NCBI GenBank assembly: GCA_017453245.1
Contig: JAFTKM010000023.1
Span: forward strand, 1-39,874
Direction of reading: 5' to 3'
DNA from: Clostridia bacterium
GTDB lineage: Bacteria > Bacillota > Clostridia > Oscillospirales > CAG-272
Length of the DNA stretch: 39,874 nt
The position numbers and the translations under genes are program-made. Positions 11,318-39,874 of this stretch are shown in pieces; the first letter of the stretch is position 1; every line of letters begins with the position of its first letter. Below the pieces are notes generated by a model that made no database searches, had not been told where the DNA came from, and was given only the letters and a program-made list of their open reading frames with translations.

Positions 11318-11392
11318 GCTGGAATGGCGCAGTGGTAGCGCAATTGATTCGTAATCAATAGGCCGTGGGTTCAAATCCCATTTCCAGCTCCA
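11318..11392 (+). tRNA. tRNA-Thr (anticodon CGT)
   Basis: A cloverleaf can be drawn: acceptor GCTGGAA/TTCCAGC, D arm GCGC...GCGC, anticodon stem ATTGA/TCAAT enclosing TTCGTAA (anticodon CGT, reads ACG), and a T loop GTTCAAATC. The discriminator base is T and the CCA end is encoded. It is transcribed alone, with its own promoter and terminator. Confidence 0.95.
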
Positions 11393-14056: not shown

Positions 14057-14361
14057 GAAAAAAGAACAGACGGAGTTATGCGTGTTATCCTTAACGGAGA
14101 ACACGCAGCGATATAAATCCCTCCGGGGATTTGTGATATTCCCTTCTGGAGCGATATAAGGCTGCGCCTTGCGATATACCCTGCGGGGCGTGAGGGGATT
14201 TATTTCATACCGCATTGGAGCGAAGCGACAATATATCGCACGAGCAAAGCGAGTATATCGCGTTTGCTTGCAAACATATCGCAAAACAGAAAAAAATAAC
14301 ATTTAGGCTACGAACCGATTTGTTATCTCTTTCTGTTGTATAAGGGTTTGGCCTTAGCCAA
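14057..14361. repeat. Structured intergenic repeat, copy B
   Basis: About 300 bp, clearly homologous to 1669-1975 and in the same orientation relative to the downstream minus-strand gene. Shared blocks include CGTGTTATCCTTA, GGAGAACACGCAGCGATA and TTTGTTATCTCTTTCTGT. The hairpin module at 14158-14170 reads AAGGC-TGC-GCCTT where copy A has TTGCC-TGC-GGCAA: pairing is kept and sequence changed. The last module is TTGGC/GCCAA versus TTGGGC/GCCCAA. The right terminal inverted repeat of copy A is missing. Instead the sequence runs into a different hairpin array. No protein is encoded. Confidence 0.78.
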
Positions 14362-14544: not shown

Positions 14545-14576
14545 TTAGCGCGCCATTCTTATGAATGACGCGCTAA
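14545..14576 (-). terminator. Hairpin at the 3' end of the 6S RNA gene
   Basis: A 14-bp stem with one mismatch (TTAGCGCG-CATTC / GAATG-CGCGCTAA) around a 4-nt loop lies immediately after the predicted 6S 3' end on the minus strand. It is followed by a short A/T tract (AATTAT) rather than a full T run. Confidence 0.65.
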
Positions 14577-14759
14577 GATACCCGCGAGAGCCGTGTAAGG
14601 CAATTTTTAACCCGGTATGACCAGGTGGGTGTCCTCTCTTTTTCATTGCGCTTCCAACATCTGTGGTAGGGAGGTTACAAGTAACAGTCCCGCACAGGAG
14701 GCCTGCATCCCGATAAAAGAAGTCCGGACTCCCTTTGTAAGTGTGTCGGTCCAAATATC
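14577..14759 (-). ncRNA. ssrS: Probable 6S RNA
   Basis: A 183-nt region without coding potential. Its ends can pair (GATATTT at the 5' end with GGGTATC at the 3' end, allowing G-U). It has the long irregular rod expected of 6S. The 3' half contains the typical hairpin CACCTGGTCATACCGGG followed by CCTTACACGGC and a closing GCGGGTATC block, resembling the E. coli arrangement CACCTTG...CAAGG, GTTACAGCC and CGGCATCTC. 6S RNA mimics an open promoter and sequesters SigmaA RNA polymerase in stationary phase. Length matches the family. The call rests on pattern memory, without a covariance-model search. Confidence 0.72.
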
Positions 14760-14796
14760 ACAATATCACGCACTCCGCAGGAGAAAAAGCGTTTTT

Positions 14797-21312: not shown

Positions 21313-21399
21313 TGGTGCCGGTAGTCGGGGTCGAACCGACACGGTATTGCTACCTTCGGATTTTGAGTCCGACGCGTCTGCCAATTCCACCATACCGGC
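21313..21399 (-). tRNA. tRNA-Leu (anticodon CAA)
   Basis: An 87-nt class II tRNA: acceptor GCCGGTA / TACCGGC, D-arm TGGCAGACGC, anticodon stem TCGGA/TCCGA around CTCAAAA (anticodon CAA, reads UUG), a long variable arm, T loop GTTCGACCC, discriminator A and encoded CCA. Single-gene transcript with its own promoter and terminator. Confidence 0.95.
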
Positions 21400-37413: not shown

Positions 37414-37711
37414 ATGCGTCGGAAAGAGCCATACACCCTAACTTCGAAAATCCCCCTACATACGGTAACCGCCACCTCTACTCCGAACAGGCTCCCTCGC
37501 GGCACACCCGATAAACCGCTTAATGCTGCTTGGTTCCCCACCTGACATGGTTCACAGCCTCGAGTTGCGCAAGACCCATTCTTCAACATAGAAAATGACG
37601 GTGCAGACTACACAGGACGAGCCCTCAGAAAGGGAATGAACCCCTGCTATAGCGGATTTCAGGTACAAGGTACCGCTACCACCCCGGCTGGTATGACTCC
37701 ATCCGACGCAC
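37414..37711 (-). ncRNA. ffs: Signal recognition particle RNA, long (Bacillus scRNA) type
   Basis: About 298 nt. The ends pair (TGCGTCGGA with TCCGACGCA). The apical domain IV shows the conserved Ffh-binding loops ATGTCAGGTGGGGAACC and AAGCAGC (compare TCAGGTCCGGAAGGAAGCAGC). The extra length corresponds to an Alu-like domain as in B. subtilis. It lies upstream of dnaX as in Firmicutes generally, with its own promoter. Its protein partner Ffh is encoded at 3091-4422. End positions are estimated from the closing stem. Confidence 0.93.
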
Positions 37712-39479: not shown

Positions 39480-39821
39480 ATGAGAGAATTATCTAAGATC
39501 CTATTGCGGTTTATAAGCCTTATTCTCGGTATCGAGCAATTTGAGAGCTTTCCGCCGCCGCTAAGCAAGGATGAGGAGGCAGCCGCGTTTGAAAAAATGA
39601 GGGCGGGAGATAAAAAAGCCAGAGAGATAATAATCGAGAGAAATCTGAGACTCGTATCGCATATTATCAGAAAATACTACTCGGCGTATCAATATCCCGA
39701 CGAGCTCTTAAGCATCGGAAGTCTCGGGCTGATAAAGGCAGTCGATTCCTTCAAGAGTGAGTACGGAACACGGTTTGCGACCTATGGAGCAAAGTGCGTA
39801 CAAAATGCTATCCTATCATAA
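39480..39821 (+). CDS. sigK: RNA polymerase sigma-K factor, 5' part only, interrupted
   Basis: Codes for 113 residues and then TAA. The N-terminus has a short hydrophobic pro-like segment (I-L-L-R-F-I-S-L-I-L-G, 7-17). F-P-P-P-L-S, N-L-R-L-V-S-H-I-I-R-K and D-E-L-L-S-I-G-S-L-G-L-I-K-A-V follow, all matching SigmaK regions 1.2-2.3. Homology stops after C-V-Q-N-A-I-L, where intact SigmaK reads C-I-E-N-E-I-L-M. Regions 2.4 to 4 are missing. This is the split point of sigK by skin elements in B. subtilis and C. difficile. The ATG at 39480 has TTGGAG upstream. An in-frame ATG 32 codons earlier lies inside the terminator and is not used. SigmaK drives late mother-cell genes. Confidence 0.9.
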   Translation: MRELSKILLRFISLILGIEQFESFPPPLSKDEEAAAFEKMRAGDKKAREIIIERNLRLVSHIIRKYYSAYQYPDELLSIGSLGLIKAVDSFKSEYGTRFATYGAKCVQNAILS

Positions 39822-39874
39822 CGGACTTTTTTGGAGCATATGATGCGAAAAAAGTACCATATGATCAAAAATGG
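39812..39874 (+). mobile_element. Left edge of a putative sigK-intervening (skin-like) element
   Basis: The sequence after the conserved sigK codons does not encode the rest of SigmaK in any frame. It contains a dyad, ACTTTTTT (39825-39832) and GCAT (39836-39839) facing ATGC (39843-39846) and AAAAAAGT (39848-39855). It also contains the direct repeat CATATGAT at 39837-39844 and 39858-39865, 21 bp apart. A GGAG at 39833 followed by ATG at 39843 could start an element gene that runs out of the window; too little is visible to identify it. No recombinase is seen, so the element is inferred from the position of the break. Confidence 0.62.

Follow-up and report, generated by a model that had tools for sequence, protein, structure and literature searches.

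A skin-like element at a break in sigK of an Oscillospirales bacterium, and a recombinase frame predicted to span its attachment site

Interruption of sigK is the classic case of development by genome rearrangement, and it is usually told as a story of domesticated prophages. Here we ask what lies at the right end of a contig from a Clostridia bacterium (Oscillospirales, CAG-272), where a sigma-K reading frame breaks off close to the end of the available sequence. The window, by which we mean the whole stretch of DNA analysed (39,874 bp), is a complete contig (G000:C18) of a metagenome-assembled genome (MAG) that is 64% complete and consists of 27 contigs. A first-pass annotation, made from the letters alone, had proposed that an intervening element begins at the break.

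The break in sigK

The sigma-K frame at the right end of the window runs from an ATG at 39480 to a TAA at 39819-39821 (113 aa). TIGR02846 matches it at 39495-39818 (E 2.4e-35, 122.3 bits) over model positions 7-115 of 227, which correspond to the N-terminal half. Compared with four congeners whose sigK is open, the window is 69-78% identical across 330 upstream bases and agrees at 45-48 of 60 positions up to the AA at 39804-39805; beyond it, only 21-25 of 68 positions agree. Because identity drops at this dinucleotide, we place the crossover within the codon for Asn109, earlier than 39810-39821, where the annotation had put the break. Its claim that sigK is broken near a conserved motif holds for the break itself, but the host part comprises only codons 1-109, and the A-I-L-S and TAA that follow Asn109 come from the element. 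Judged from the alignments, A-I-L-S is an element-encoded imitation of the conserved E-I-L-M. The contig ends here, so only 53 bases follow the sigK stop, and only 71 bases of the element are visible. The annotation had also seen no frame continuing past the break; in fact one other frame, 39806-39874, has no stop before the contig ends, and its product matches a conserved protein. The features of this region are as follows.

39480-39821, + strand: interrupted sigK, 5' part (TIGR02846, E 2.4e-35; comparison with the empty site)
39804-39805, no strand: predicted crossover dinucleotide AA, within the Asn109 codon (the ends in G012 share AA only; congener identity ends here)
39806-39874, + strand: element left end, the first 23 codons of a frame for an XRE (double helix-turn-helix) protein, which shares the recombinase's phase and has no stop before the contig ends (alignment to G012, G041, G054, L110, L160 and L143, 19 others in all; Pfam HTH_3 found in full-length relatives)
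39807-39824, no strand: terminal half-site of the element, GCTATCCTATCATAACGG, repeated in inverted form at the right end (pattern match; alignment to the reverse-complemented right ends of G012 and G019)

Among 35 congener loci in which sigK is continuous across the break point, which are best matches rather than a random sample, 33 are free of stops and two (G063, G079) contain one. An intact sigK elsewhere in the genome had been named as a possible refutation; at E 0.001 the contigs of the 64% complete MAG hold no second TIGR02846 match. Two genes downstream of sigK in G012 have no clear orthologue in G000 (one weak 35% partial match for one, none for the other), so the 3' side of the window could not be located.

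Junctions and attachment sites in related genomes

An 18-base left-end pattern is found at sigK in four of 69 congeners (G000, G012, G041 and G054), with 0 control matches. A looser form of the pattern also matches at sigK in two genomes from a different family, again with 0 control matches (its match in G218 is due to chance, as no sigK is present there). Right ends lie ahead of a sigK 3' half in G012, G019, G042 and G054, and six of the 69 congeners have a junction of either kind. The same left end at sigK in relatives bears out the proposal of an intervening element, and its recurrence in two families agrees with the earlier view that the break is not a chance truncation. That an element begins at the right end of the window is close to certain.

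An assembly error at the break had been listed among the possible refutations. All six left-end contigs that we measured stop 71-204 bases beyond the core, as they would at a graph fork, which is what an artefact at a contig end might look like. However, the junction recurs in independent genomes and in two families, the entire element is assembled on long contigs of G138, G296 and G435, and ends about one k-mer beyond the core would also fit an element common to several genomes, or a circle. We consider an artefact very improbable.

The att half-sites form an inverted repeat around a short core. For instance, the ends in G012, GCTATCCTATCATAACGG and GCTATCCTCTCCTAACGG, mirror each other, and the left and right ends have only AA in common at the core; attP would thus consist of two inverted half-sites with the crossover at AA. 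Read across the core, the two sigK halves of G012 would give Q-N-E-I-L-M (a reading of two halves, not an observed join), and the 3' half that the annotation had expected is present in relatives, where it starts N-E-I-L-M. In 16 complete relatives sigK is split into two halves that flank the element and could be rejoined in frame; the window holds the 5' half only.

One congener, G019, shows both states. On one contig the sigK 5' half is continuous with the 3' half, and on another the right end of the element precedes the same 3' half; the joined and interrupted contigs have exactly 126 bp in common, beginning with the core AATG. The two forms fit excision, and they also fit a strain mixture. 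Searches of viral contigs, plasmids and 394 genomes turned up neither a circle nor an attP. A match in IMG/VR to an attP-like 18-mer (L042) was set aside as chance: it lacks the flanking half-site and lies on an unrelated phage-like contig.

The insertion could also be dead, with sigK lost in the lineage, the element permanent and the host no longer sporulating fully. The MAG is incomplete and no excised form was seen in it, and one carrier of the element is Faecalibacterium prausnitzii, which is non-sporulating. Against this, the sigK 5' frame of the window is intact before the core, the 3' halves of relatives are open and a joined form exists in G019. We regard a dead insertion as unlikely. 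Excision during sporulation, in which the element would leave sigK in the mother cell and sigma-K would be restored, seems to us a fairly likely outcome.

A large serine recombinase at the right end

The annotation had expected a serine recombinase in the element, and one is present in relatives, beside the sigK 3' half. In the right end of G312, 1.5 kb of the element carries 519 aa of a large serine recombinase (LSR) that reaches the core. G138 (Intestinibacillus massiliensis bin107) has a whole element whose right end encodes a recombinase of 566 aa, containing the Pfam domains Resolvase, Recombinase and Zn_ribbon_recom. Within the genus of the window only the last 34-45 aa of the recombinase are visible, at contig ends; the tails of G012, G042 and G054 (last 35-39 aa) match G312 at 64-78%. 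A gene with a Recombinase domain was found in none of five bins (G000, G012, G019, G041, G054). A SpoIVCA-type LSR thus lies inside the element in relatives and beyond reach in the window.

We scanned named genomes (best 80 of 450 relatives) and viral sequences (best 80 of 101), and analyzed the 84 best LSR loci (L099-L182; 80 named and four viral). In 73 of these 84 the sigK 3' half lies directly 3' of the recombinase, and in 69 of the 73 the LSR does not supply its own stop codon: it stops at the TGA within sigK's AATGA in 51 loci and reads through AACGA into sigK in 18, while the other four have their own stop. The other 76 viral loci (L183-L258) have no sigK 3' half adjoining the recombinase (L257 gives one weak, distant match).

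In the relatives, then, the sequences back both junctions, in-frame 3' halves and an LSR touching the right junction, as well as the movement of the element and the in-phase XRE frame described below. In the window, only the left junction can be read directly; its recombinase, its sigK 3' half and sporulation-linked excision are inferred from the relatives.

Separately, three C. difficile plasmid records of ~24 kb (NZ_CP149669.1, NZ_CP149734.1 and NZ_CP149756.1; H34-H36) contain a recombinase 39.5% identical to that of G138.

Complete elements and their cargo

The 16 complete elements with both sigK halves range from 2.65 to 78 kb: 12 are at named loci (~2.65-11.5 kb), and the others are those of G138 (78,106 bp), G150 (13,865 bp), G296 (27,151 bp) and G435 (9,000 bp). 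The G296 element is at the same place as L129, in Faecalibacterium prausnitzii APC923/61-1. In F. prausnitzii (L129; L278-L280, G296) both sigK halves surround a 27-kb element of the XRE type.

The smallest elements, L166 and L174 (~2.65 kb), encode a 168-183 aa protein, a small protein on the minus strand and the recombinase; the 168-183 aa protein of L166 has a cytochrome b5-like domain. At the other extreme, the cargo of G138 (L078-L081; G138:C1:194365-272471) includes, by eye, many metabolic-looking frames and an ArsR/Acr3-like pair. L110 encodes a Rep_trans protein (E 1.1e-9, above cut-off), with DUF87 and FtsK_SpoIIIE (HerA/FtsK) below cut-off, which suggests a mobilizable element and not a prophage.

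A small protein of 55-62 aa is found in 16 of 16 complete elements and at 26 of 83 loci, a set in which many sequences stop short of the left end; its profile was built from eight complete elements, several of them closely related. In L131 it lies outside the element, and it matches no Pfam or NCBIfam family. The directionality factor of the B. subtilis skin element, Skr, has 64 aa (PMC6957869). Given this similar size and its constant presence, the 55-62 aa protein is a natural candidate for a recombination directionality factor.

Movement of the element

We compared the element side with the host side for six left ends (15 pairs). In six of the pairs the element ends are 92-100% alike and the sigK sides 59-67% alike. 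These pairs are G041/G054 (96/96 on the element side, 196/308 on the sigK side), G000/G041 (64/69, 204/303), G000/G054 (64/69, 180/305), G012/G245, which belong to different families (112/119, 185/308), G012/G312 (110/120, 183/309) and G245/G312 (117/123, 189/310). In the remaining nine the element side is 69-78% alike and the host side 57-70%. Because the element ends are far more alike than the sigK sides in those six pairs, we conclude that the element moves between species and families.

Elements of the same type are also inserted away from sigK, at an AATG core, in three relatives: L143, L292 (G326) and L295 (G389). The L143 element lies ~70 bases from a tRNA-Asn, and that of G389 lies within a frame that resembles a MATE transporter (read by eye). 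The G326 recombinase gives two separate partial matches and could be disrupted. In G139 (L273) an XRE-type left end adjoins a sigK 3' half that lies on the other strand, which would fit insertion of the element in the reverse orientation.

A reading frame predicted to continue across the core

In the recombinase's phase, counted from the core, the last 69 bases of the window give 23 stop-free codons, CYPIITDFFGAYDAKKVPYDQKW. This short piece has no match in PHROGs or Pfam and no confirmed viral relative (two insignificant phage matches, E 4 and 6). The protein was resolved through longer relatives: in L110 and L160 the same frame extends to 201 and 206 aa (48% mutual identity) and contains two HTH_3 domains (E 7.9e-16 and 3.9e-17); L160 is the XRE-type element of a cultured carrier, Ructibacterium gallinarum DSM 107454. 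The XRE alignment likewise gave no viral relative. A search of 394 genomes of the order found the frame in 17. In 14 of these it comes straight after the sigK 5' half; the other three are G139, beside the sigK 3' half, and G326 and G389, away from sigK.

The recombinase frame of each of the five complete XRE elements runs to the core in phase and without a stop, with another 195-215 aa beyond it. As an architecture, a single LSR plus XRE frame in the circle is well supported by these sequences, and on the simplest reading the excised circle is predicted to carry a single gene, LSR-XRE, with roughly 770 codons. We put the fusion forward as a prediction, since the searches recovered no circle and alternative starts are possible in most left ends. 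Integration would split the gene, and the LSR would then stop in host DNA. Codon 1 of the left end (n = 21) is Cys in 16 cases, CGC in two and ACC in three; after integration it is TGA with host AATGA and CGA with host AACGA. In related elements, insertion seems to cut the element's own recombinase reading frame as well as sigK.

A rival account is an ordinary skin-type element in which the 3' end of the LSR merely overlaps attP, the XRE protein is a separate regulator and nothing functional is split; the XRE start would then lie near the left end, or within sigK in a different frame. Of 21 left ends, 12 have an ATG or GTG in frame ahead of the core and nine have none there; in 11 it is four codons upstream, in host sigK but out of its frame. 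Seven further left ends have an internal start at codons 6-17, which leaves L110 and G226 as the only two without a start up to codon 21. As 19 of the 21 offer a possible start, translation of the XRE part may need no fusion. Constraint points the same way: codons 25-80 have dN/dS 0.09-0.20 in seven of the eight pairs with an estimate (G012/G245, 0.50 over 15 codons), and codons 1-24 are weakly constrained (0.13-1.6, 11 pairs). The start options and a constraint that becomes clear only from codon 25 make a separate XRE gene a serious rival. However, no start position is common to all left ends, and the commonest one (codon -4) lies in host DNA and thus cannot belong to the element. A ribosome-binding match of at least 4 bases precedes a possible start in only four of 21 left ends, L110 and G226 offer no start up to codon 21, and recombinase and XRE frame share one phase in 5/5 complete XRE elements. 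We give the ordinary skin-type account a chance just short of even.

Elements without XRE exist, such as L100 in the cultured [Clostridium] viride DSM 6836, which also favors the rival account. A set of 19 left ends comprises eight with XRE (frameshifted in G312), six with TGA at the core and five with unrelated tails of 17-37 aa. In the six TGA-core left ends nothing changes between the circular and the integrated state. Overlap of the recombinase stop alone was rejected as a general switch, since TGA is present in both states in these six, and the claim of a switch is confined to XRE-type elements.

For XRE-type elements, integration may act as a switch, in which the recombinase of the free circle is fused to a double helix-turn-helix regulator and the gene is cut at attP by insertion into sigK. 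That 19 of 21 left ends offer another possible start lowers the odds of this reading, and we hold it tentatively, at somewhat less than even confidence. If it is true, insertion would usually swap a Cys codon for a stop read from the host. One crossover would disable sigma-K, part the recombinase from the regulator and behead the regulator, and excision in the sporulating cell would undo all three.

Proposed mechanism and relation to known systems

Taken as a whole, the best explanation of the locus is likely to be a mobile, skin-like element that interrupts sigK and whose left end terminates the window. A SpoIVCA-type LSR, encoded at the right end against the sigK 3' half, would join attP to the Asn109 codon of sigK; in the circle, LSR and XRE would form one gene; the 55-62 aa protein would act as directionality factor, and the element would be excised in the mother cell.

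The skin elements of B. subtilis and C. difficile interrupt sigK and have a large serine recombinase, inverted-repeat att sites and a small directionality factor (PMC5025042, PMC6957869), and in C. difficile the recombinase gene is immediately upstream of the 3' part of sigK (PMC5025042). The present elements share the interruption, the type of recombinase, the inverted-repeat att sites and, as in C. difficile, an LSR directly before the sigK 3' half; a directionality factor is here a candidate only. The claim that sigK is split at the identical place in B. subtilis and C. difficile found no support in that wording. Unlike the skin elements as described there, the present ones are nearly identical across families and also occur outside sigK, those of the XRE type extend the recombinase frame across attP, and L110 carries a Rep_trans protein.

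Mycobacteriophage BPs has its attP inside the repressor gene, and integration shortens the product by turning a Cys codon into TGA; it uses a tyrosine integrase and a tRNA-gene attB and shows integration-dependent immunity (PMC9262239). The present elements may resemble BPs in an attP predicted to lie inside a gene, with frames in phase across the core in 5/5 complete XRE elements. They differ in that the recombinase frame itself would be split, the enzyme is a serine recombinase and not a tyrosine integrase, and attB is in sigK and not in a tRNA gene. The archaeal suicidal (SSV-type) integrases are tyrosine recombinases whose site lies inside the integrase gene, so that integration yields inactive parts, and a review describes self-disrupting recombinases of this kind as confined to archaea (PMC8371274). 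Here too the recombination site is predicted within a recombinase gene that integration would split, but the catalytic (Resolvase), Recombinase and zinc-ribbon domains stay whole on one side. Alicyclobacillus phage MMB025 is likewise integrated in sigK between inverted repeats, with a SpoIVCA-family integrase beside the site (PMC13141910). It differs from the present elements in being a 105-kb infectious phage with a TCTC core and an integrase described downstream of the site (PMC13141910).

In the literature covered, which represents subscription journals thinly, we recognised no description of an LSR gene that spans its own attP, nor of skin elements in Oscillospirales. If the switch exists, both the archaeal suicidal integrases and integration-dependent immunity would have a serine-recombinase counterpart in bacteria. 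If the recombinase frame spans attP, the state of the element would be written into its own recombinase, which offers a testable idea for how the direction of recombination is set. Because the elements are sporadic in the genus, near-identical between families and sometimes located off sigK, the passage from mobile element to developmental switch may be observable under way, and the setting is common gut bacteria.

Other features of the window

Elsewhere the window contains repeats and structural RNAs, as follows.

1688-1902 and 14080-14294: direct 215-base repeat, two copies, 93% identical
1714-1790: match to Gut-1 RNA, overlapping the first copy of the 215-base repeat
11318-11389 and 21316-21399: tRNAs
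14575-14786: 6S RNA
37429-37696: large SRP RNA

A second repeat pair, of 77 bases, adjoins the 215-base repeats.
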